Shown here: piece after piece, positions 2 through 24,458 of the stretch
Position numbering within the stretch: position 1 is the first letter of the stretch
How the letters are laid out: every line of letters starts with the position of its first letter
Origin: Gammaproteobacteria bacterium
GTDB lineage: Bacteria; Pseudomonadota; Gammaproteobacteria; SZUA-229
Assembly (NCBI GenBank): GCA_029881035.1
Contig: JAOUNI010000024.1
Location: forward strand, 1-37,782
DNA: 37,782 bases
Direction: 5' to 3'
Notes under the pieces: generated by a model
Database searches by the model: none
Told to the model about the DNA's origin: nothing
The model's input: the letters and a program-made list of their open reading frames with translations, nothing else
Position numbers and translations under genes: made by a program

Positions 2-652
2 GCGGCGACAAAATCACAGCACCCGGAAACGGGCGCTGATATCAAGGTGATGGGCGTAAGGCGACAGGATCATTTAGATTTAACTGTGGCCTGCGCTTAT
101 ATTGACCGGTACATCACGGACATCAACGATTATCAGGCAAAAAAATCACAGTTGGGTCGACTGGTTGAAACCGTTGCGGCTGAATATACCAGCATGGCTG
201 TGACCGTCGTGGTCAATGGTGCCGATGATATTGCAGCACAAAGCGTGTATCTTACCGTGACCGGCACGTCAGCTGAATCGGGTGATGACGGTGAAGTTGG
301 GCGCGGCAATCGAGTTAACGGCCTGATCTCTCCCTATCGGCCAATGAACATGGAAGCTGCCGCTGGCAAGAACCCAGTCAGTCACGTTGGTAAGCTGTAT
401 AACATTCTGGCGCAAATGATCGCCAGGGAAGTTGTCGGCCAGCTGGCAGGGGTCGAAGAATGCTATTGCTATCTGGTCAGCCAGATTGGTAGTCCTGTTG
501 ATCAGCCCAAAGTCATCGACCTGAAATTGCATTTGCAGGCAGGCCTGACTGTGGATAGCGTGCAGGCACAGGTTGAGGAAATTGTCAGGAAAAAACTGGC
601 GGCTATAAAGCACATTCAACAGGATGTGGTGTCGGGACTACTGGTCTATTAA
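2..652 (+). CDS. mat: S-adenosylmethionine synthetase, archaeal type (5' end outside window)
   Basis: The C-terminal 216 residues of an archaeal-type methionine adenosyltransferase (AdoMet_Synthase family), which makes S-adenosylmethionine from methionine and ATP in the cytoplasm. The frame is open to the window edge, reading through the internal GTG and ATG at 47-52, so the true start lies upstream. Family signatures visible are IKVMGVR near the left edge, GTSAESGDDGEVGRGNRVNG, and SPYRPMNMEAAAGKNPVSH followed by VGKLYN. The full family protein is about 400 residues, so roughly half is present. This family is distinct in sequence from bacterial MetK. The identification is firm; whether the genome also has metK cannot be seen. 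Confidence 0.9.
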   Translation, partial: AATKSQHPETGADIKVMGVRRQDHLDLTVACAYIDRYITDINDYQAKKSQLGRLVETVAAEYTSMAVTVVVNGADDIAAQSVYLTVTGTSAESGDDGEVGRGNRVNGLISPYRPMNMEAAAGKNPVSHVGKLYNILAQMIAREVVGQLAGVEECYCYLVSQIGSPVDQPKVIDLKLHLQAGLTVDSVQAQVEEIVRKKLAAIKHIQQDVVSGLLVY

Positions 653-699
653 CGTATTGCGGGGCTTGTGTTGGTTTGGCTACGCTAGCGCTGACTGTC

Positions 700-708
700 T
701 GGTATGAT
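700..708 (+). promoter_or_regulatory. Candidate extended -10 promoter
   Basis: TGG followed by TATGAT (703-708) gives the TGnTATAAT-like extended -10 form about 30 bases before the pentapeptide-repeat gene. No good -35 box is present at the usual distance, which extended -10 promoters can tolerate. The assignment rests on sequence resemblance only. Confidence 0.35.
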
Positions 709-737
709 ACGGATGTTTGATAGTGACAGAAAAAATT

Positions 738-1520
738 ATGATTTCTATGGTTTTAAAAAATAAATCCTTACGTAAAAAGCGTTTTTTCTACCTGAGTGCA
801 GCGCTTTTTTTTATACTCGTCAGCCATGCTCAAGCTAACTGTGAAGCAGAAGCAGCGCCCAGAGTGAACTGGGCGGGCTGTGATAAAAGTGGAATGGACT
901 TTAGTGGTAAAGATTTGGGGCATGCGATATTGAGCAATGCTAATTTGCGGAATACAAATTTTTCTGGTGCACGTCTATCGCACGCTGATTTTGAGTTGTC
1001 GAATATTAGCGGCGCGAAATTTGATAAAGCGCGTATGCAGGATAGTAGGCTGGTGAGTGTGACCGCGGAAAAGACTTCATTTAAAGCTGCGATTATGGAT
1101 GATGTCAGTTTTAGTCGTTCCGAAATGAGTCAGGCAAGTTTCGAGCAGGCACGACTTAATAGTGCAAACTTTTATGAAACAAAGCTAGTCGGTGCAAATT
1201 TCTCGGCAGCACAATTACCATCTTCCAGTTTTGTTCACGCATCACTTGAGGGTAGTGTTTTTGACGGTGCAAATTTATCACAGGTAATAATGACATCGGC
1301 ATTAATGGAGTCTGCTCGATTTACGAATGTTAATTTGACGAGCGCTGTTCTAGATAAGGCTGATTTAAAATTTGTTGATTTCACTGGGTCAGATTTGAGC
1401 AAGGCATCATTGCGTGAAGCGGTGATAGATGGCGCTCTCTTTAATAAAGCAAAACTCGGTAGAGCAATCTGGATAGATTTAAAGCGCTGTCGTGCCAGTT
1501 CGGTTGGCAGTTGTCAGTAA
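738..1520 (+). CDS. Secreted pentapeptide-repeat protein
   Basis: A protein of about 260 residues. The N-terminus has a basic stretch (KNKSLRKKR), a hydrophobic core and a likely signal peptidase I site after SHAQA, so export to the periplasm is inferred. The mature part is almost entirely pentapeptide repeats of the A(N/D)LxX kind, for example ANLRNTNFSGARLSHADF, which fold as a right-handed quadrilateral beta-helix. Cysteines occur at both ends (NCEAEA, WAGC, KRC, GSC) and could form disulfides. The frame extends upstream to a TTG at 717; I prefer the ATG at 738, or the one at 747, because they give a compact signal peptide. No clear Shine-Dalgarno site. The function is unknown; repeats alone do not predict one. 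Confidence 0.8.
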   Translation: MISMVLKNKSLRKKRFFYLSAALFFILVSHAQANCEAEAAPRVNWAGCDKSGMDFSGKDLGHAILSNANLRNTNFSGARLSHADFELSNISGAKFDKARMQDSRLVSVTAEKTSFKAAIMDDVSFSRSEMSQASFEQARLNSANFYETKLVGANFSAAQLPSSSFVHASLEGSVFDGANLSQVIMTSALMESARFTNVNLTSAVLDKADLKFVDFTGSDLSKASLREAVIDGALFNKAKLGRAIWIDLKRCRASSVGSCQ

Positions 1521-13471: not shown

Positions 13472-13831
13472 ATGGCAAATATATTGTTGGTGGATGATTC
13501 AGCGTCCATGCGTGAAATGGTTTCGTTTACACTGAGAGGTGTAGGTCATCAGGTAAATGAAGCTGAAGACGGTGTAGAAGCGCTTGAATTTGCTAAAGGG
13601 GCTTCTGTCGATCTGGTTATAACTGACGTTAATATGCCTAATATGGACGGCATTACTTTGACGGCCGAGCTACGTAAGCTAGAGAGCTATAAATTTATCC
13701 CGATATTGATTTTGACAACGGAAACCGGCTCTGTAAGAAAGGAGCAGGGTAAGGTGGCAGGAGCCACTGGCTGGATAGAGAAGCCATTCGATCCGGATCA
13801 TTTGCTAGGCACAATAAATAGAGTGCTGTGA
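13472..13831 (+). CDS. cheY: Chemotaxis response regulator CheY
   Basis: A 119-residue lone receiver domain that carries the phosphate signal from CheA to the output machinery. Acidic pair D8-D9, phosphoacceptor D52 (VITDVNMPNMDG), switch T82/T83 (LTTET) and K104 (EKP) are intact. It begins the plus-strand che cluster with GAGG 13 bases before the ATG, and lies 35 bases before cheA. What it controls is not shown here: no flagellar gene is in the window. Confidence 0.95.
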   Translation: MANILLVDDSASMREMVSFTLRGVGHQVNEAEDGVEALEFAKGASVDLVITDVNMPNMDGITLTAELRKLESYKFIPILILTTETGSVRKEQGKVAGATGWIEKPFDPDHLLGTINRVL

Positions 13832-13866: not shown

Positions 13867-15888
13867 ATGAATTCAGATATCAATATAGACCTCTCTCAAT
13901 TTCATGATGTTTTCTTTGAAGAATGCTCGGAGGGAATGGAGGTCATGGAGTCAGGTTTGTTGAATCTGACCAGTGACTCAGATTCAGAGGTCATTAATAC
14001 TATATTCCGCGCTGCACACTCTATCAAGGGTGGTGGTGGTACATTTGGCTTTTCGGAAATTTCAAATTTTACGCATGGTATGGAAACTATACTGGATAAA
14101 ATGCGTAATGGAAATCTGGCTGTTACTCCAGAAGTTCGAGAGTTATTGTTGGAAGCGCTCGATTGTTTGCGGGATATGGTACAGCGTAGTAAGGATAAAG
14201 CTCCTATCGATCAGGACCTGGTTCGGGAAGTACATGAGAAGCTGGAGAAATTCGCCAGTGGCAGTGCTGTGGCTGTAGAGGAACCGCAAACAGAAAGAAA
14301 AAAGAAATCAGCTAGTGAATCTACAGGAAAGAGTGATGTAGCGACCTGGAATATTTCTTTCTATCCTCATGAGAATATTTTTTATACAGGTAATGATCCT
14401 TTTCGCTTGATTCGTGAGTTGCAATGTTTGGGCGATTTGACTGTTACTATTAATCATGAACGTTTACCCAAATTTTCTGAGATGGATGTGCAGAGTTGTT
14501 ATCTTGGTTGGGATATGGTGCTTAAAGGTGATGTGCCGCGAGATTTGATTGCCGAGATTTTTGAATGGGTAGAAGATGACTGTGATCTGGAGATTAGCCA
14601 GCAGAATGAAATTTTTGAGCAAAAAAAAGCGGAGGTTGTAGAAGCGCAGGTAAGAACAACGGATGTTGCGAAAACTGGGCGCCGTCGCACGGATAAGTCC
14701 GGGTTATCCGGTCAGGAGAGCACTTCAATTCGCGTTGATATTAACAAGGTTGATGGTCTAGTTAATCTTGTTGGTGAATTGGTAATCACGCAATCCATTT
14801 TGAGCAGGGTGTGTGATGATCTTGGTTTGGAAAATAATGAAAAGTTGAATGAATGCCTGGATCAATTGGAACGTAATACACGAGATCTACAGGAGCAAAC
14901 AATGGGGATACGTATGTTGCCCATTGATTTTGCATTCCAGCGTTTACCACGTATCGTACATGATTTGAGTCTTTCTTTAGGTAAAAAAGTAGAACTTAAA
15001 TTTTCTGGTGAAACCACCGAGCTGGATAAAACGGTATTAGAGAAAATTGGCGATCCACTGATGCATCTGGTGCGTAATGCGTTGGACCATGGAATTGAAT
15101 TACCTGATGTGCGCGTGGCAGCAGGTAAGACTGAGAAAGGCCTGATAACTATTAATGCCTATCATCAAGGCGGTAATATTATTATTGAAATTTCTGATGA
15201 TGGAGCAGGATTAAATCCAGAGAAAATAGTTAATAAAGCACGTGAAAAACGCTTAATTGAAGATAATGAAGAGTTAACTGAGGCACAAATATACAATTTA
15301 ATTTTCAGTCCCGGGTTCTCTACAGCAGTTACAGTTAGTGATGTTTCTGGTCGCGGAGTTGGCATGGATGTAGTGCGACGCAACATGACCGACCTGGGTG
15401 GAGTTGTTGAGGTGGCTTCTAAAGTTGGCAAAGGTAGCTCTTTTACTATAAGGCTGCCGTTGACCGTCGCTATTCTTGAAGGTCAGATGGTTAGAGTGGA
15501 TGACCAGATATTTATTATTCCATTACTATCTATCGTTGAGTCGCTTCAGGTTGCCGAAGAAAAAATTAATGCTATTGCTAATAAGTCTGAACTTTATCAT
15601 TATCGTGATGAATATATTTCAGTGATTCGTTTACGTGAGATGTTTAATCTTAAATCTGATGACGAGGAAGAAGATAAAGCAGGGTTGTTAGTTGTCGTTG
15701 ATATTGGTGGCCGACGCCTTGGTTTATATGTTGATGATGTGATTGGGCAGCAGCAGGTGGTAATTAAAAGTCTGGAGCAAAATTATCAGCAAGTCCATGG
15801 TATAGCAGGTGCAACTGTATTGGGTGATGGTGCCGTGGCGCTGATTATTGATGTTTTGGGATTGGCAAAAAATAATCTTGATAATTAA
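13867..15888 (+). CDS. cheA: Chemotaxis sensor histidine kinase CheA
   Basis: A 673-residue hybrid-free CheA. The P1 Hpt domain has the phosphorylated H51 in AAHSIKGGGGTFGF. Residues about 160-240 form a P2-like region that should bind CheY or CheB (WNISFYPHENIFYTGNDPF). P3 dimerisation is near 285-350 (DINKVDGLVNLVGELVIT), the P4 ATPase has an N box at NALDHGIELPD and a G box at SGRGVGMDVVRR (about 494), and P5 is a CheW-like domain at about 535-670 for receptor coupling. All catalytic parts are present. The upstream ribosome site is weak. It follows cheY by 35 bases. Confidence 0.97.
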   Translation: MNSDINIDLSQFHDVFFEECSEGMEVMESGLLNLTSDSDSEVINTIFRAAHSIKGGGGTFGFSEISNFTHGMETILDKMRNGNLAVTPEVRELLLEALDCLRDMVQRSKDKAPIDQDLVREVHEKLEKFASGSAVAVEEPQTERKKKSASESTGKSDVATWNISFYPHENIFYTGNDPFRLIRELQCLGDLTVTINHERLPKFSEMDVQSCYLGWDMVLKGDVPRDLIAEIFEWVEDDCDLEISQQNEIFEQKKAEVVEAQVRTTDVAKTGRRRTDKSGLSGQESTSIRVDINKVDGLVNLVGELVITQSILSRVCDDLGLENNEKLNECLDQLERNTRDLQEQTMGIRMLPIDFAFQRLPRIVHDLSLSLGKKVELKFSGETTELDKTVLEKIGDPLMHLVRNALDHGIELPDVRVAAGKTEKGLITINAYHQGGNIIIEISDDGAGLNPEKIVNKAREKRLIEDNEELTEAQIYNLIFSPGFSTAVTVSDVSGRGVGMDVVRRNMTDLGGVVEVASKVGKGSSFTIRLPLTVAILEGQMVRVDDQIFIIPLLSIVESLQVAEEKINAIANKSELYHYRDEYISVIRLREMFNLKSDDEEEDKAGLLVVVDIGGRRLGLYVDDVIGQQQVVIKSLEQNYQQVHGIAGATVLGDGAVALIIDVLGLAKNNLDN

Positions 15889-15933: not shown

Positions 15934-16698
15934 ATGCGAACTGTTGCTGTTATTAATCAGAAAGGTGGAGTAGGTAAAACCACAACTACTGCTAATCTCG
16001 CTCATGCATTTGCAATAAAAGGTTACTCTGTTACTGGTATTGATATGGACCCTCAGGGGCACCTGGCAGCACATTGGGGTTGTTATCGTCGAGATAGTCA
16101 TGGGGTTGATAAGGTGCTCTTGGGTGAGAAAATTATACCTCAAGTTGCAATTTCTGCACGTGACAGACTGCACCTGGTGCCGGCAGGTGAAGGGCTTAAA
16201 GAAATTGAGCGTGGAAATGGTGATGAACTTTTAGCAAATAGATTAAATGAAGCATTGTCACAGGTAGCTAATACTCAGGATTTCACTTTTATTGATTGCC
16301 CACCCGCTTCGGGGTTGTTAATTGATTATGTGCTGTCAGTGGCTGATGAAGTGATAATTCCTGTCGCGGCTGATTATTTGGCGTTGCGTGGCTTGTCCGA
16401 TATTATAGAAACAGTTAAGAAATTTGAAAAAAAATTTGAAAAAAAATTTACCTTTTGGGTTGTGGTTACTCGCTTTCATACTCGACGTAAATTATCGTGG
16501 GAAGTGAGAGATAAATTATTAGAGTATTTTCCTGATAATTTATTAGCAACTAGTATTAGAGAGTCATCAGTTTTGGCGGAATGCCCCGGTTTTGGTAAAA
16601 CAGCTTTTGAATATAAGGGCGCAAATTTTGGTGCATATGATTATGCGTCGTTGGCTAGAGATCTTTTGAACGGAGAATGCTATCGTGAGCAAAAGTAA
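15934..16698 (+). CDS. ParA/Soj-family ATPase of the chemotaxis cluster
   Basis: A 254-residue ParA/MinD-type ATPase. The deviant Walker A, KGGVGKTT, is at residues 10-17, with the signature lysine K10, and Walker A' and B correspond to VTGIDMDPQGHLAAHWG and FTFIDCPPASG. A ParA homologue inside a che operon recalls Vibrio ParC and Rhodobacter PpfA, which position chemosensory arrays at poles or midcell; that role is inferred. No parB is nearby, which argues against chromosome partitioning. Unusual: a 12-base in-frame tandem repeat at 16420-16449 encodes KFEKKFEKKF in a predicted surface helix. The stop overlaps the next gene by 14 bases. Confidence 0.9.
   Translation: MRTVAVINQKGGVGKTTTTANLAHAFAIKGYSVTGIDMDPQGHLAAHWGCYRRDSHGVDKVLLGEKIIPQVAISARDRLHLVPAGEGLKEIERGNGDELLANRLNEALSQVANTQDFTFIDCPPASGLLIDYVLSVADEVIIPVAADYLALRGLSDIIETVKKFEKKFEKKFTFWVVVTRFHTRRKLSWEVRDKLLEYFPDNLLATSIRESSVLAECPGFGKTAFEYKGANFGAYDYASLARDLLNGECYREQK
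16420..16449 (+). repeat. In-frame 12-base tandem repeat in the ParA gene
   Basis: AAATTTGAAAAA occurs at 16420-16431 and 16432-16443, followed by a half copy, AAATTT, at 16444-16449. Each copy adds KFEK. The copies meet in runs of eight A, so copy number could change by slippage without breaking the frame. Confidence 0.9.
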
Positions 16699-17194
16699 TG
16701 ATAAATCTCGAGTATTAGGAGATGATCCTCTGGCATGGTTGAATGCAGGAACAGGTGCAGATAAAAAGACAGATAAAAAGACAGATAAAAATGAGTCAAT
16801 GGTTAAAAATAAAAAGAATAAAAAACCCAAGTCTGAAAAGAAAATTAAAGTAGATAAAGTTGAAACAGAGAAACCTAAATCAGAACGGCCTAAAGATGAT
16901 GAAACTAAAGCTGATAAAAAAGAGAAAATAAATCGTCTCGAACTTGAGTCATCTTTAGTCATTAATAAAGCCAGTGAAGTATACGCGTCACTTGAAAAAC
17001 TTTCTGTAAATGGTGGCGCAGTTGAAATAGATGCATCTAAGGTTGAAGTTATAGATAGTGCAATATTGCAGTTACTTCTTGCATTTGTATTAAGCCTTAA
17101 AGAAAAGGGCATTAGCTTGTCATGGCATAAGCCATCAGAAGGGATGTTGAGTAAGGCCTCAATACTTGGTTTGACAGAACAGCTTGGGTTATAA
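16685..17194 (+). CDS. STAS-domain protein with a lysine-rich N-terminal tail
   Basis: 169 residues. The first 80 or so are highly charged and low-complexity (DKKTDKKTDK, KKNKKPKSEKK), probably disordered. The C-terminal 90 form a STAS domain, as in anti-sigma antagonists and MlaB (GGAVEIDASKVEVIDSAILQ then LLLAFVLSLKEKG). At the site where SpoIIAA carries its phosphorylated Ser in DSSGL, this protein has Ala (IDSAIL), closer to the DTAGL of MlaB, so Ser-switch control is doubtful. The start is a GTG with GGAG about ten bases upstream, overlapping the ParA stop. Its role in the che cluster is unknown; a scaffold or adaptor function is a guess. Confidence 0.85.
   Translation: MSKSNDKSRVLGDDPLAWLNAGTGADKKTDKKTDKNESMVKNKKNKKPKSEKKIKVDKVETEKPKSERPKDDETKADKKEKINRLELESSLVINKASEVYASLEKLSVNGGAVEIDASKVEVIDSAILQLLLAFVLSLKEKGISLSWHKPSEGMLSKASILGLTEQLGL
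16759..16791 (+). repeat. 12-base tandem repeat in the STAS gene
   Basis: AGATAAAAAGAC at 16759-16770 and 16771-16782 with a third partial copy at 16783-16791. It encodes the DKKT repeat of the charged tail. The unit is 12 bases, as in the repeat in the preceding gene, so the frame is preserved. Confidence 0.85.
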
Positions 17195-17197
17195 AAT

Positions 17198-18073
17198 ATG
17201 ACTTCGATTGCTGAAACTGTAAATGATGAGTCGACTTATAAGAAAGAATTTTTATTCACAGATAAGGATTTTTCTTATCTAAGTAATCTGGCCGGTGAAT
17301 TAGCAGGTATTAGCATGCCTTCAGGTAAGCGTGAGCTTATTTATGGTCGCCTGGTAAAGCGTTTGCGCGTTTTGAGGTTGAAAAATTTTAAAGAGTATTG
17401 CGACTATCTTGATCAGGATGGTAGTGAGGAACGGACACATTTTATTAATGCCATTACAACCAATGTCACATCATTTTTTCGTGAAAACCATCATTTTGAT
17501 TTTCTTGCTGAAACATTACTGCCTGAGTTGGTTAGAAAAAAAAGCACAGAATCTCGGCCGCGTTTGAGAATATGGTCTGCAGGATGTTCATCAGGCAAAG
17601 AGCCTTATTCCATTGCAATGGTTCTTAGGGAAAGTGTTCCTGATATTGATCGTTGGGATGCAAGAATACTGGCAACTGATTTAGATTCTAATATTCTGGA
17701 AGTTGCTAAAGCAGGTGTTTATCCTAAAGAGCATTTGAAAGAAGTGGCATTGGGCCAATACAGGCGCTGGTTCAAAATGGGTAAAGGTGTCAATGAAAAT
17801 TCGATTAAGGTAACGGATGATATTAAGCAGATGGTTACCTATAAAAAACTGAATTTGACTGAAAGTTGGCCGATGAAAGGGAAGTTCGATATCATATTTT
17901 GTCGAAATGTTACTATTTATTTTGATCGTGACACACGTATAAAACTGCTTGATCGCTTTGCTGATTATCTAAATGAGGGAGGTTGTTTGTTTGTAGGTCA
18001 TTCAGAAAGCCTATTTGGATTAACGCAACGATTTAATACAATTGGCCGTACAATTCACGGTAAAGTTAGATGA
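17198..18073 (+). CDS. cheR: Chemotaxis protein methyltransferase CheR
   Basis: CheR methylates glutamates on the receptor using S-adenosylmethionine. 291 residues: an N-terminal helical domain (residues 20-90, with NAITTNVTSFFRENHHFDFL) and a Rossmann methyltransferase domain with the SAM site RIWSAGCSSGKEPYSIAM and FDIIFCRNVTIYFDRDTR. A beta-subdomain is expected between strands and would bind the receptor C-terminal xWxxF tether; the receptor at 20640 carries one. It starts three bases after the STAS gene and overlaps cheD by four bases. Confidence 0.96.
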   Translation: MTSIAETVNDESTYKKEFLFTDKDFSYLSNLAGELAGISMPSGKRELIYGRLVKRLRVLRLKNFKEYCDYLDQDGSEERTHFINAITTNVTSFFRENHHFDFLAETLLPELVRKKSTESRPRLRIWSAGCSSGKEPYSIAMVLRESVPDIDRWDARILATDLDSNILEVAKAGVYPKEHLKEVALGQYRRWFKMGKGVNENSIKVTDDIKQMVTYKKLNLTESWPMKGKFDIIFCRNVTIYFDRDTRIKLLDRFADYLNEGGCLFVGHSESLFGLTQRFNTIGRTIHGKVR

Positions 18074-18735
18074 GTAAGCCAAGGTATAAACATAGTTCTG
18101 TGGATATGGCGAACGCACCTCCGATGCTTCAGGGATTCGAGCATATTAATCGTTATTGGGATACTAAACATGACATATTTGCCGCAAAAATTTTGCCGGG
18201 TGAATTTTATGTTTCTATGCATGGTGAGTTGATTACAACAGTCTTAGGCTCTTGTGTTTCAGCTTGTATTCGAGACAGAGTAACTGGTCTTGGTGGTATG
18301 AATCATTTTATGTTGCCTGATAGTCGCCAGCATACGCGTTCATCTGCCTGGGAAAATACCCCCGTTAGTGTTGAGACCCGTTATGGCAATGTTGCAATGG
18401 AGCGCTTAATCAATGTCATTCTTGCGGGAGGCGGAAAAAGACAAAATCTTGAAATAAAATTATTCGGTGGCGGCAAAGTGTTAAGTATTAATACTGATAT
18501 TGGCGGTAAAAACGTTGATTTCGTTAAACACTATTTGAGTACAGAAGGATTTGAGATTGAAGCTGAGGATACCAGAGGCGTCTGGCCACGCAAGATTCAG
18601 TATTTTCCTCTAACAGGACGAGTGCGAGTTAAACGACTTAATTCATTACATAACGATACGCTTAAAAGAAGAGAGCAAGAGTATCTTGAAACTCTTAAAG
18701 AGAAGAAAGTTGAAGGTAAAATTGACCTTTTTTAG
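18070..18735 (+). CDS. cheD: Chemoreceptor glutamine deamidase CheD
   Basis: CheD deamidates receptor glutamines to glutamates. 221 residues, longer than the usual 160-200. The catalytic pair is C62 (LGSCVSACIRD) and H79 (MNHFMLPD), with the Thr region at VETRYGNVAME and a GGGK loop (KLFGGGKVL). The start overlaps the cheR stop as ATGA. No cheC is present, the usual partner in Bacillus. The C-terminal extension is charged and ends in GKIDLF, very similar to the GGIELF end of the CheZ-like protein at 19894. Confidence 0.96.
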   Translation: MSKPRYKHSSVDMANAPPMLQGFEHINRYWDTKHDIFAAKILPGEFYVSMHGELITTVLGSCVSACIRDRVTGLGGMNHFMLPDSRQHTRSSAWENTPVSVETRYGNVAMERLINVILAGGGKRQNLEIKLFGGGKVLSINTDIGGKNVDFVKHYLSTEGFEIEAEDTRGVWPRKIQYFPLTGRVRVKRLNSLHNDTLKRREQEYLETLKEKKVEGKIDLF

Positions 18736-18769: not shown

Positions 18770-19846
18770 ATGAAAAAAATTAGCGTCCTTATTATTGATG
18801 ATTCAGCCGTTGTACGGAAAATCTTAAAAGAAATTCTGTCCTCAGATGATGAAATTGAGGTTGTCGGTACCGCAATAGATCCTTATATCGCCAGAGATAA
18901 AATAAAGCGGCTGCATCCGGATGTTTTAACGTTAGATATTGAAATGCCAAAAATGGATGGCATTAGTTTTCTCCGCAATGTTATGCGGTTACGGCCGATG
19001 CCTGTCGTGATGATTTCATCATTAACTCAACAGGGTGCGGATATAGCTCTAGAGGCGCTGAGTATTGGAGCGGTTGATTACATTAGTAAGCCGAAAATTG
19101 ATGTTGCACATGAACTGGGTGAATATGCAGAAGAAATTATCGCCAAGGTAAAAAGTGCGGCTAGTGCTAAGGTTCTTCCCTATGTTTCATCGACTCAGTC
19201 TGCACAGGTTAACTCGAGTGACTCGCTGGATGTGCTGCGCGCAGCCAGGCCTTACAGTAAATTAACCACAACAGAAAAAATTGTTGCCATTGGAGCCTCG
19301 ACGGGTGGTACTGAGGCGATCAAAGAAATATTAATGAATATGCGCCCAGACTCACCAGGGATAGTGATTTCTCAGCATATACCGCGGGCATTTAGTACAG
19401 CATTTGCCAAGCGCATGGATAGTCTTTCACCTATGGCTGTTTGTGAGGCACAAAATGGTCAGCATGTATTACCGGGACATGCTTATATTGCGCCGGGTGA
19501 TATGCATCTGATCCTGGTTCGTGATGGGGCTCGATATTATATTCAGCTAGATGATGGCGAACCCTGTAACAGGCATAAACCCTCAGTGGATGTAATGTTT
19601 CGTTCGGTTGAGGAAGCTGCGGGTGAGAATGCTATTGGCGTTCTGTTAACAGGTATGGGTGCTGATGGCGCCAAAGGTTTGAAAAAAATGCATGATTCTG
19701 GATCTAAAACGATTGCCCAGGACGAAAATAGTAGTGTGGTCTGGGGAATGCCAGGTGAAGCCGTAAAGCTGGAAGCTGCAGATTTTGTGCTACCCTTAAA
19801 CAAAATTGCTCAGAAAATTGAGTTACTAATTAGTGAAGCAAAATAA
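18770..19846 (+). CDS. cheB: Chemotaxis-specific protein-glutamate methylesterase CheB
   Basis: CheB removes receptor methyl groups and is activated by CheA phosphorylation. Residues 1-120 are the receiver domain with D10-D11, D56 (TLDIEMPKMDG) and SKPK. A linker precedes the methylesterase domain, where the catalytic triad is S177 (IGASTGG), H203 (ISQHIP) and D299 (GMGADGAKG). 358 residues, normal length. It lies 34 bases after cheD. Confidence 0.97.
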   Translation: MKKISVLIIDDSAVVRKILKEILSSDDEIEVVGTAIDPYIARDKIKRLHPDVLTLDIEMPKMDGISFLRNVMRLRPMPVVMISSLTQQGADIALEALSIGAVDYISKPKIDVAHELGEYAEEIIAKVKSAASAKVLPYVSSTQSAQVNSSDSLDVLRAARPYSKLTTTEKIVAIGASTGGTEAIKEILMNMRPDSPGIVISQHIPRAFSTAFAKRMDSLSPMAVCEAQNGQHVLPGHAYIAPGDMHLILVRDGARYYIQLDDGEPCNRHKPSVDVMFRSVEEAAGENAIGVLLTGMGADGAKGLKKMHDSGSKTIAQDENSSVVWGMPGEAVKLEAADFVLPLNKIAQKIELLISEAK

Positions 19847-19893: not shown

Positions 19894-20448
19894 GTGAATA
19901 CAAAGCAAGATGGATCCTCTGAAATCCGGACATTGTTGTATGAGCTGGAAGAAGGATTGTATGGCCTGATAAAACGCGAGCACTATGAGATCCGAGATGA
20001 ATTATCGCAAATGGGTTCTGTGGTGAGTGATGCAATCAAGACCTTAGTCAAGAGTTTGAATAATTTGAGCGTACAGCTAAAAGAGCAAAATAAATTAATA
20101 GAAGATATTGCTCTGATGGGTGATGCCCTGGGTATAGAAAAGCAGCAGGAATATCGAGCATTGAGCAAAATGATAGATCAGGATATTTCTGCAGTAGTTC
20201 GTTCTTTTCAATTTGAAGATATCGTGCAGCAACTAGTTAGTCATTGTCGTACGAGATCAGATGGGCTTGAGCAGTTATTTGAGCGGTTAAATCAGGATGT
20301 TAGCAAGCTGAAAAATGCAACTCATGATGAGTCAGGGAAGATATTGTCAGCAATGCAGGTCGATGTGGCGAAAGTTCGTAAACAACTGGAAAAAGAAAAT
20401 CCGGTTAAACAGACCTCAATGGGAGCTGGTGGCATAGAGCTTTTTTAG
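19894..20448 (+). CDS. CheZ-like coiled-coil protein, candidate CheY-P phosphatase
   Basis: A 184-residue, almost wholly helical protein, shorter than E. coli CheZ (214). The motif SFQFEDIVQQ at 104-113 aligns with the CheZ active-site stretch DFQDLTGQ: the catalytic Asp and Gln (D143 and Q147 in E. coli) correspond to D109 and Q113 with the same DxxxQ spacing, next to a conserved Phe. The C-terminus ends in GGIELF, hydrophobic as is the CheY-binding tail of CheZ. The first half is a long amphipathic helix region. The start is GTG 19894, with GAGGG five bases upstream. It lies between cheB and mcp. A phosphatase role is inferred; overall similarity to CheZ is low. Confidence 0.6.
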   Translation: MNTKQDGSSEIRTLLYELEEGLYGLIKREHYEIRDELSQMGSVVSDAIKTLVKSLNNLSVQLKEQNKLIEDIALMGDALGIEKQQEYRALSKMIDQDISAVVRSFQFEDIVQQLVSHCRTRSDGLEQLFERLNQDVSKLKNATHDESGKILSAMQVDVAKVRKQLEKENPVKQTSMGAGGIELF

Positions 20449-20588: not shown

Positions 20589-20639
20589 TCTTTTTGGGGC
20601 TCATTCTGCTCCGGCATTGTGCAATCGAGAGGGGAAACT

Positions 20640-22754
20640 ATGAACCTGAAAAATACAAAAATGTCATCCAAGATTGCTGCGGCATTTTTAGTTTTGATTT
20701 CACTGGTGGTTATTAGTGGAGTGGCGGGCTATTACGGTGTAAGCCGCCTAAGTGAATCGTTAGAATATGTTACCGGGACTGTCTGGGATGCCGCAGATGG
20801 TGCTATGGAAGGTTCTATCAGTACACAAGCTCAAATGCTGGTTATTGATAAAGTTTTTTCTGGCTTTGCTGAATTCGACCGTGTTGCTGAAGATATCAAG
20901 GCGAATTCAGATAAGGCTCATAAAGCCCTATTGAGAATGAAAAATAGTGGCTTGTTGTCCGATGAAATTTCCAGGCAGGCTGTAGAGGCGGAGCAAGCAT
21001 ACAAAAAGGCGGCTGACGGTGTGCTTGAACACTTTAAAGTGTTTCATGCAATTGATAATCGCCTGGAAGACAATTTCTTTGAGTTTCAGATGTTGATGAC
21101 AGAAGCTGAGGAGATGGGAGATGGTATTTTTGAAAAAATAAGTAAGAGTCCAAATGACATGATCAGCTGGAACACTGGTCTGGATGATGCGTGGACGGCT
21201 GCAGATGGGGCTATGATGTCCCAGATTTACATGTTAAAAGCCATGTATTTCTACCGTCATATGTTAGGTTTTGTGGATCTTGAAGGTTCGAAGGCGGCCA
21301 TCATGGAAAGTAATGAAATTCTGGAAGAAGAGATACAAAGAGTCATTACAGATCGAACTTTTAGGAAAACCACTGTGACTAAGGGGCTGTACGAGGGACA
21401 AAGCTTTAGCAGTGCCTTAACACAGGCAATGACCATACATAAGACTGATTTTGATGAAAGTATCGAAGCATTTGAGTCTTATCATAACGCACGCATAGAA
21501 TATGAGAATGTTTCTATTTTAATGTTAGCGGTTCTCGGAGAGTCACAAGCACTGGGTAATAATGCGGTTGGATCAGAGATGGGAAATATCTCTTCAGTAA
21601 TTACTATTTCGAACAGTATGATGCTCGTGGTGGTTATTGTTGCTGTTATTACTGCAATGCTGATGGGGTTTTTTATTCTCCGCAGTGTTAAAAATCAACT
21701 GGGAGGAGATCCTTCTGAGTTAATGATAATTTCAGGTGAGCTAGCGAAAGGTCATCTTGATATGAAGCTGGATAAGGATGCTGTTGGGGTTTATGCATCG
21801 ATCCAACAGACTGTGCACAAATTGACGGAGATTATCAGTGGCATCAAATCCGGTGCAGGTGAAGTCAGTGTAGCTTCTGAGCAGGTTTCACAAGGTAATG
21901 CTAATCTGAGTCAACGTACGCAGGAGCAGGCATCAAGTCTTGAAGAAGTCGCTTCCAGTATGGAAGAGATGACCGGTACTGTGAATCAGAACTCCGAAAA
22001 TGCACAGCATGCTAATCAGTTAGCCATTGCTGCTCGTGAGCAGGCTGATTTGGGTGGTAAGGTTGTGGGTGAAGCAGTCACGGCCATGAGTGAGATTAAC
22101 GAATCCAGTAAACATATTGCTGACATTATTGGCGTCATTGATGAAATAGCTTTCCAGACTAATTTACTGGCTTTGAATGCAGCCGTTGAAGCGGCGCGTG
22201 CGGGTGAGCAGGGTCGTGGTTTTGCGGTGGTGGCCAGTGAAGTAAGAAATCTGGCTGGACGTAGTGCTACAGCAGCTAAAGAAATTAAAGGTTTGATCCA
22301 AAACAGTGTAACCAAGATAGAAAATGGTTCAAGACTGGTAAGTGAATCAGGTGGTGCTCTGTCAGAGATTGTCGACTCAGTGAAGAAAGTCAGTGATATT
22401 GTTGCTGAAATTGCTGCCGCCAGTAAGGAACAATCTGATGGTATTAACCAGGTCAATAAGGCTTTGTTACAAATGGATGATATGACACAGCAGAATGCAT
22501 CACTGGTTGAAGAGGCCGCCGCCGCTAGTGAGGCGATGGGAGCCCAGGCTCAGGAATTGGAAGCTCTGGTTTCTTTCTTTAAATTGAGTGAGAGTGATTA
22601 TGTGAAATTCAGTGACACTCATGATAATCAGCAAACCACACCAAAAACAATCGTACCAGAACTCTCTAAGTTGGAATCAAAAGAGCCTGTAAATAAGGTA
22701 AGCTTGTCTCATAAGAGCGACAAAAATGATGATGGCGAGTGGCAGGATTTTTAA
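20640..22754 (+). CDS. Methyl-accepting chemotaxis receptor with C-terminal CheR/CheB tether
   Basis: A 704-residue transmembrane receptor. TM1 is about 12-34, a large helical periplasmic domain runs from about 36 to 325, TM2 near 330-352 ([20 protein letters not shown]), followed by a HAMP domain with LGGDP and the signalling hairpin tip ([20 protein letters not shown]). The periplasmic domain repeats W-x-A-A-D-G-A-M at W49 and W185, suggesting two related helical modules as in HBM-type sensors. The last residues are GEWQDF, a xWxxF tether like NWETF of Tar. The ATG at 20640 follows GAGAGGGG at ideal spacing; an upstream GTG at 20619 is less likely. The ligand is unknown. It is the only receptor in the cluster. 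Confidence 0.95.
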
Positions 22755-22799
22755 TGTACGTGATGAAGTTCATTGATGACTAGTGAAAACGGTGGAATT

Positions 22800-23303
22800 A
22801 TGAGTACAGCAATAGATGCAAAAAACGCTTCTATAGAGATGGAAGCAGGAACTAACCAGTATTTGACATTTATGTTGGCTGATGAGGAATACGGAGTTGA
22901 TATCCTGCGAGTACAGGAAATACGTGGATGGGATAGTGCAACCGCCATTCCTAATGCGCCAGATTATGTATTGGGCGTGGTTAATCTTCGTGGTGTTGTC
23001 GTACCTATTTTTGATTTAAGAAAGCGGTTTAATATGAGCACGGCCGAATTTGATTCTGCGACAGTGGTTGTTGTGGTAAAAGTTAAGTACGCCAAAGGTG
23101 AACGTACCATTGGCATGGTAGTTGATGCGGTTTCAGATGTTTATAATATTAGCCCTGAAAAAATTAATTCCGCACCTGATGTTGGCGGCAGCGTCAGTAT
23201 GGAGTTCATTAAAGGCTTGGCCACTGTTAACAATGAGATGATTATTTTACTCGATGTTGATGAGTTAATTAATGTGGGTGTGCTCGAGGAAATGCATCAA
23301 TAG
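22800..23303 (+). CDS. cheW: Chemotaxis coupling protein CheW
   Basis: CheW links receptors to CheA. 167 residues, one CheW domain: QYLTFMLADEEYGVDILRVQ, EIRGWDSATAIPNAPDYVLG then VVNLRGVVVPIFDLRKRF, and DAVSDVYNISPEKI. The residue pattern is normal. I choose ATG 22800, preceded by GGTGGA; earlier in-frame starts at 22773 (TTG) and 22776 (ATG) would add eight or nine residues. 45 bases after mcp, probably the same transcript. Confidence 0.95.
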   Translation: MSTAIDAKNASIEMEAGTNQYLTFMLADEEYGVDILRVQEIRGWDSATAIPNAPDYVLGVVNLRGVVVPIFDLRKRFNMSTAEFDSATVVVVVKVKYAKGERTIGMVVDAVSDVYNISPEKINSAPDVGGSVSMEFIKGLATVNNEMIILLDVDELINVGVLEEMHQ

Positions 23304-23381: not shown

Positions 23382-24458
23382 ATGAGTATCCAGGGAGATA
23401 ATAAAAACGAGATTCTTGTTGTTGATGATTCAGCAACAATCATAGCTACTGCAAAAAAAATGTTGCAGGATGAGTTTATCGTTCATACAGCAAAAGACGG
23501 TGGTGAGGCATGGAATGTCATCAGTGAAAATGAAAATATAAAAGTCATTTTTTCTGATATGCAAATGCCGGTAATGAACGGTATGCAGTTACTGCTGAAA
23601 ATTCGTGAGTCAAATGATAAAAGAATATCTGATTTACCGGTGATTATGGTAACAGGTCAGTCTGACTCACCTGCTGGGAAACGTGCTGTTTTTGATATCG
23701 GTGCTACCGATTTTATTGGCAAGCCCTTTGACGCGATGGATTTGTTGAGTCGAGCTCGTTCTAATTCGAGCCCGCATAGAAGGGAAGCCGATAATTTAGA
23801 TCGTTCTCAGCAAGTTTTTGTAACACCTAGTGGTTTTCAGAATGTGGGCCGTGAGGCACTAGCGCGCTCGCTGGAAACAAAAGAAGAATTCTCGGTAGTT
23901 CATATTGAAATTTCTAATATTGATGAAATTAAGAATGAGATTGATAGTAAATCAGTAAGACAGATTATTGTTTCACTGGTTAAACGTATTAGTAGTGTAT
24001 TACGTGAAGGAGATGTAGCGACACGCATTGGTGAAAATAAATTTGCAATTTTATTATATGCGAACAGTCACAATACCAAACTAACAGTAGATCGATTGTG
24101 TGAATGCTTGAAGAAGCTTGTTTTTGAGCTTAATGGAAAGACGCTCAGGAAAGAGCTGATCTACGGTTATTCATCTGCAGATTGTTATGATAAAAAAACA
24201 AGTTTTGTAGATATATGCAAACAGGCTGACCTGGCGTTGAAAGATGCGGCAGGTATCAAGTTAGGTAACCGGATTGCAGGTTATAGTGAGCCGGGTAAGG
24301 CAGAAGCCAAAAACGTGGTAGATGAAGATGCGGATTTATGGCCAGATTTAACGCACGTTATCGATGGTGATTATCATCTAGTTGATGATAAACACGTCGC
24401 TGCCCTGGTCAGTAGCATGCAAAAATATCTCGATTACGTTAAAAAGAATAAAAAGTAG
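23382..24458 (+). CDS. Response regulator with a degenerate GGDEF domain
   Basis: A 358-residue protein. Residues 10-130 are a receiver domain with D15-D16, phosphoacceptor D59 (IFSDMQMPVMNG) and Lys in GKPF. Residues about 145-300 resemble a diguanylate cyclase GGDEF domain, but the signature is GENKF (G217-F221), so the metal and GTP-binding positions differ and cyclase activity is unlikely. The C-terminal 50 residues are an extra helical tail (VAALVSSMQKYLDYVKK). It may bind c-di-GMP or act as an adaptor. Last gene of the che cluster, 78 bases after cheW. Confidence 0.88.
   Translation: MSIQGDNKNEILVVDDSATIIATAKKMLQDEFIVHTAKDGGEAWNVISENENIKVIFSDMQMPVMNGMQLLLKIRESNDKRISDLPVIMVTGQSDSPAGKRAVFDIGATDFIGKPFDAMDLLSRARSNSSPHRREADNLDRSQQVFVTPSGFQNVGREALARSLETKEEFSVVHIEISNIDEIKNEIDSKSVRQIIVSLVKRISSVLREGDVATRIGENKFAILLYANSHNTKLTVDRLCECLKKLVFELNGKTLRKELIYGYSSADCYDKKTSFVDICKQADLALKDAAGIKLGNRIAGYSEPGKAEAKNVVDEDADLWPDLTHVIDGDYHLVDDKHVAALVSSMQKYLDYVKKNKK

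Follow-up and report, generated by a model that had tools for sequence, protein, structure and literature searches.

The window, as we call the whole 37,782-nucleotide stretch of DNA analysed, carries on its forward strand a run of genes in the order cheY (13472–13831; its product, once phosphorylated, is the presumed substrate), cheA (13867–15888), a ParA/MinD-type ATPase gene (15934–16698), a gene for a STAS-domain protein of the anti-sigma-factor-antagonist type (16685–17194), cheR (17198–18073), cheD (18070–18735), cheB (18770–19846), the open reading frame P0001 (19894–20448), an MCP gene (20619–22754), cheW (22773–23303) and a gene for a response regulator with a GGDEF-family domain (23382–24458). 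The STAS protein has an N-terminal extension of ~75 residues that is Lys-rich and of low complexity. The MCP, of 711 amino acids, shows a weak match to a 4HB-type sensor and is closest to Vibrio Aer2 in its cytoplasmic part; its C-terminal end, GEWQDF, fits the CheR-tether pentapeptide pattern x-[HFYW]-x2-[HFYW] (PMC7184735). The response regulator is a candidate output and, since a degenerate GENKF replaces GGDEF, is probably not an active diguanylate cyclase.

Common in gammaproteobacteria, F7 arrays gave rise to the E. coli chemotaxis machine. Their stage-1 gene order comprises an anti-sigma-factor antagonist, cheY, cheA, two cheW and an aer2-like gene, then cheR, cheD and cheB, followed by an mcpA-like gene, an anti-sigma-factor antagonist and a serine phosphatase (PMC7184735). 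With cheY, cheA, cheW, an MCP, the cheR–cheD–cheB order and a STAS protein, the operon in the window fits the F7 type, a class assigned here by gene order and synteny, and P0001, directly 3' of cheB, occupies the mcpA-like slot. In this literature cheZ is confined to F6 systems, and F7 clusters are described without it (PMC7184735). The original prediction had pointed to a cluster with no other phosphatase. This is true and extends to the assembly (a MAG 98.4% complete), where nothing scored over the cut-off for PF04344 CheZ, PF04509 CheC or PF13690 CheX, so that no known CheY-P phosphatase family appears to be present. The CheC/CheX/FliY phosphatases, which would fill the same functional slot as P0001, are unrelated to it in fold and motif and are absent from the genome. 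FlhA and FliG also returned zero matches in this 98.4% complete assembly, and the chemosensory system is therefore probably non-flagellar.

P0001, with a GTG start, encodes a stand-alone CheZ-like protein of 184 amino acids, as judged from the open reading frame and its orthologs. The AlphaFold2 model of the monomer is entirely helical (pLDDT 83.9), in agreement with the original description of a helical 184-residue protein with FEDIVQQ at residues 107–113, where the Asp is D109 and the Gln Q113. An N-terminal helical arm (residues ~8–74; 19915–20115) is homologous to the arm preceding the MCP hairpin in McpA-like receptors, and is followed by a junction (residues ~75–84; 20116–20146) at which, in comparison with L113, L112 and other receptors, the PF00015 kinase-control hairpin of McpA-like receptors is absent. 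The catalytic-type motif S104-FQFEDIVQ-Q113 lies at 20203–20232, recognised by its conservation and its register with CheZ D143/Q147, and contains the codons of D109 (20218–20220) and Q113 (20230–20232). The C-terminal tail, NPVKQTSMGAGGIELF (residues 169–184; 20398–20445), carries the conserved pattern Q..M..G.[IV]ELF, ends in GGIELF, and is the proposed CheY-docking peptide; its residues 178–184 are predicted to be disordered (AlphaFold2 pLDDT <50). P0001 looks soluble. It has no transmembrane segment, its maximal 19-residue hydropathy being 0.69, whereas 102 of 108 long relatives exceed 1.6, and a profile search for the MCP signalling domain PF00015, present in L112 and L113, found none in P0001. 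No match to P0001 was found in NCBIfam or among plasmid records, and a PDB sequence search gave coiled-coil chance matches only. Foldseek with the model returned nothing under 1e-3, and VIA-align returned BAR domains and other helical bundles (Z ~9–11). CheZ was absent among the fold-search matches listed, in searches that are unspecific for helical proteins.

Orthologs of P0001 were found at 63–76% identity in six congeneric genomes, with one ortholog truncated by a contig edge, and, at 31–34%, in different genera of its GTDB family as well as in additional gammaproteobacterial MAGs. Their position directly 3' of cheB is constant, and dN/dS is 0.06–0.24 where calculable, with dS close to saturation; orthologs, constant slot and low dN/dS together indicate a real gene. 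The motif F[ED]D...Q is invariant in the orthologs down to 31% identity, and the longest fully conserved blocks among nine of them are QF[ED]DIVQQL and KENPVKQ......G..ELF. In a wider set of 127 relatives, Q106 and D109 are conserved in all, Q113 in 126 (the remaining one has Arg) and F107 in 94%, while the last residue is Phe in 127/127 and the preceding residue Leu in 88%. Where F107 varies (Y/S/G/V), the Asp is still kept, as is the Gln in all but one. These counts cover all matches of an earlier profile search with no motif filter, although some bias is left in them because the profile itself contained the motif; a set of sequences picked by motif was dropped as circular. In ~0.71 million residues of background open reading frames, a hand count gave about 3 instances of F[EQ]D...Q in proteins not belonging to the family, a rate of <0.001 per protein of P0001 length. 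The motif in P0001 is not a product of chance.

The remote matches of P0001 are MCP-like open reading frames of ~400 aa, several of them adjoining cheB or cheD, which resemble P0001 at both ends and not in the middle. With an N-arm profile built from stand-alone proteins, 66 relatives that bear an MCP domain came up at E<1e-3, the best at 1.7e-13. A C-terminal profile, whose training set included P0001 orthologs, scored P0001 at E 8.9e-32. Of 370 gammaproteobacterial genomes searched with a C-terminal profile, 101 carry the family. The slot 3' of cheB is common to P0001, its orthologs and many McpA-like loci. On a replicon of Vibrio sp. THAF191d, the stage-1 F7 order is followed after cheB by a 398-aa family member (ALQFTDIIVQ ... 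GEVELF), which indicates that the McpA-like receptor class includes these proteins. The McpA-like 24H receptors of F7 systems (a class in which PMC7184735 and PMC7534058 name VCA1088 and CttP/PA0180) have in common with P0001, in the members compared here, the cheB slot and, by homology, the N-terminal arm, the [SA]LQF[ED]D...Q segment and the ..GxIELF tail; unlike them, P0001 has neither the transmembrane segment nor any of the MCP signalling hairpin. On this sequence evidence P0001 descends from an McpA-like 24H chemoreceptor of the F7 system and is a truncated version of it. VCA1088 had no experimental reports (PMC7534058), and the conserved McpA-like receptor has been called puzzling, given that arrays assemble in its absence (PMC7184735). 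The open-access text searched reports no phosphatase role for McpA-like receptors.

P0001 is not the only stand-alone form. Others are found in the clade of the window, at L101 and L102 (after cheB) and at L103, L104 and L106. A second stand-alone type, with QFYDR.SQ and mostly ending in ELF, often lies between the STAS gene and cheR (L105, L109, L110, L230, L241 and L255). Described more broadly, this second family of ~170–220 aa has QF[YHA]D...Q and mostly an [IV][ED]LF end, lies as a rule immediately 5' of cheR within F7-type clusters, and takes in L232, L246 and L254, and also L119. In the last, a single cluster contains one protein of each kind, receptor and QFYD, so the family is not strictly one per cluster. 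On a tree of 114 columns in which many forks are unresolved, changes between receptor and stand-alone form number five, at least three of them forced by well-supported branches; as read from these sequences, stand-alone forms arose more than once. The motif is kept in nearly all of them and the tail in most, and this persistence of the tail without a receptor argues against a tether for receptor methylation.

The family also travels with cheD. Both the family and cheD of this type were found in 47 genomes, cheD only in 14, the family only in 2 and neither in 121 (Fisher p 1e-28 for hand-tallied sampled genomes, uncorrected for kinship). Among 49 cheD loci taken without bias, the family lay within 25 of the fetched stretches, and by hand inspection 19 of the other 24 genomes carry a member elsewhere; the pairing thus holds at the level of the genome and not always of the operon.

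CheZ is a long helical hairpin that dimerises to a four-helix bundle. Its D143 and Q147, on the second hairpin helix, act on CheY-P, the Gln orienting water for in-line attack, and a C-terminal peptide docks CheY. P0001 has the corresponding D...Q pair as D109/Q113 and, like CheZ (PF04344), places a Phe and then Asp and Gln four apart on a long helix, with a flexible linker leading to a short C-terminal segment ending in Phe. The published CheZ signature sets AXXFQ beside DXXXQ (PMC7750401). P0001 reads SFQFE-D, with Ser for Ala and with Glu in place of the most conserved Gln of CheZ, the one preceding the Asp; QFQD relatives carry A/S..FQ. P0001 further differs from CheZ in its F7 rather than F6 operon, in its kinship to receptors, and in its tail, NPVKQTSMGAGGIELF, whose GGIELF end takes the place of the C-terminal CheY-binding helix of the VDDLLxSLGF type.

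The CheZ link expected from a profile search did not appear as a direct match, P0001 being unmatched by PF04344 at E<=1 (the best sub-threshold match genome-wide was an MCP-like protein on contig C95, not P0001), and did appear through a bridging group, the ~400-aa MCP-like proteins with QFQD...Q that join P0001 to CheZ. First, with a profile made from gammaproteobacterial CheZs and searched against 3,790 open reading frames and reversed decoys, the family ranked first after CheZ (4.9e-7, 3.6e-5, 4.5e-4 ...), the best reversed decoy scoring 0.30. Asp and Gln fell in the CheZ catalytic columns in 29 of 29 family matches covering the site, which 0 reversed decoys covered. Second, a QFQD-type profile from 17 relatives with P0001 left out reached CheZ (best 3.7e-9) and P0001 (1.1e-9), retrieving at E<1e-3 27 CheZ sequences, 0 reversed CheZ and 0 unrelated proteins. 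P0001 alone is not detectably CheZ and is linked to it via intermediates, so the connection is transitive. This decoy-controlled bridging profile sets D109/Q113 on the CheZ Asp/Gln, which bears out the original idea that the active site resembles that of CheZ while the protein differs from canonical CheZ, and makes its catalytic reading of the pair plausible. The further suggestion of a CheZ subfamily does not stand, given the missing PF04344 match and CheY-binding helix, the Glu for Gln and the descent from an McpA-like 24H receptor. As far as sequence can tell, P0001 is not CheZ proper; it is what is left of an McpA-like receptor cut down to its CheZ-like module. An hhalign comparison of the family with CheZ (E 0.003) was discarded, as it beat 150 column shuffles and not the reversed alignment (25.4 vs 24.9). 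Searches of the open-access literature turned up no account of MCPs with CheZ-like sites.

We consider it probable that P0001 serves a non-flagellar F7-type system as its CheY-P phosphatase, derived from an McpA-like (24H) chemoreceptor and without its transmembrane segment and CheA/CheW-contacting hairpin; by analogy it would most likely combine CheZ chemistry with a different docking tail. With the loss of the transmembrane segment and the MCP hairpin, two helical arms and the tail were left, and the protein may dimerise to form a helical bundle. Its ..GxIELF tail at the C-terminus would dock CheY-P; a CheY partner is argued for by the survival of the tail in proteins that lack an MCP domain and by its misfit to the CheR-tether pattern. 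As in CheZ, Q113 would then enter the CheY active site and orient the attacking water, while D109 would contact the conserved CheY lysine, and the resulting dephosphorylation of CheY-P would terminate the signal.

Counting against this phosphatase reading are the intermediates in the CheZ link, the hhalign comparison that did no better than its reversed control, the uninformative fold search, the Glu for Gln, the pair of forms at L119 and the behaviour of an S. oneidensis McpA protein, which clusters with the F6 kinase CheA3 in the manner of a receptor (PMC9855816). Such an association with CheA3 (PMC9855816), the array-like architecture in which McpA-like receptors sit and the Glu in place of the conserved CheZ Gln would suit a P0001 that binds CheY-P without hydrolysis, as an adaptor, sink or positioning factor with the D/Q pair as binding site. 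We hold this unlikely, as exactly the two residues of CheZ are near-invariant and in register, and no other CheY-P phosphatase family was found in the genome. Rather less credible is a role in adaptation, in which tail and motif would serve docking of CheD, CheB or CheR and P0001 would regulate methylation or deamidation, not CheY-P. The CheC–CheD interplay of Bacillus offers a precedent, and the P0001 family is tightly coupled with cheD and cheB in genomes; however, the tail misfits x-[HFYW]-x2-[HFYW] where the neighbouring MCP fits it (EWQDF), P0001 offers no MCP domain as a methylation substrate, and its resemblance is to the CheZ catalytic helix. That P0001 is a functionless, decaying receptor remnant is very improbable: the transmembrane and MCP parts are indeed gone, but dN/dS is low, the gene is kept in seven congeners and other genera, and conservation peaks exactly at motif and tail. 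We give as little credence to a chance resemblance within a coiled coil since, although coiled-coil bias inflates scores and the reversed alignment was equal in hhalign, the low motif rate, the decoy-controlled profile searches, the register test and the invariance all speak against it.

If P0001 is a CheY-P phosphatase, the McpA-like receptors of other F7 systems are, by analogy, probably receptor-shaped phosphatases, which suggests that a widespread and puzzling chemoreceptor class switches the signal off and does not sense. More tentatively, the widespread short McpA-like/24H 'chemoreceptors' could be CheY-P phosphatases in receptor shape and supply the signal termination that F7 and related systems seem to lack, with CheZ sharing their ancestry and P0001 repeating the reduction from receptor to phosphatase; we regard this as possible rather than probable. 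Were the ancestry shared, phosphatase and chemoreceptor would be two ends of one lineage. P0001 also agrees with the published history of the F7 system, whose takeover of the cheY/cheZ output roughly coincides with the loss of the mcpA-like gene. It is in effect a natural deletion that has spared just the tail and the CheZ-like site, and makes the function of McpA-like receptors a question of two-residue mutagenesis on a small protein.

The host genome has a second chemosensory cluster on contig C95 of G000 (L140, 5061–14226), in which a 432-aa MCP-like protein (LQFQDRVSQ, C-terminus LLTFF) is followed by cheY, cheA, an MCP gene, cheW, cheR, cheD and cheB; this protein may be a VC1394-type 24H receptor of F9 systems. 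Contig C96 encodes another MCP-like receptor, with LQFQDRLSQ and VTMF. At the contig end of the window (47–1520) lies a truncated-looking archaeal-type methionine adenosyltransferase gene, adjoined by one for a pentapeptide-repeat protein.
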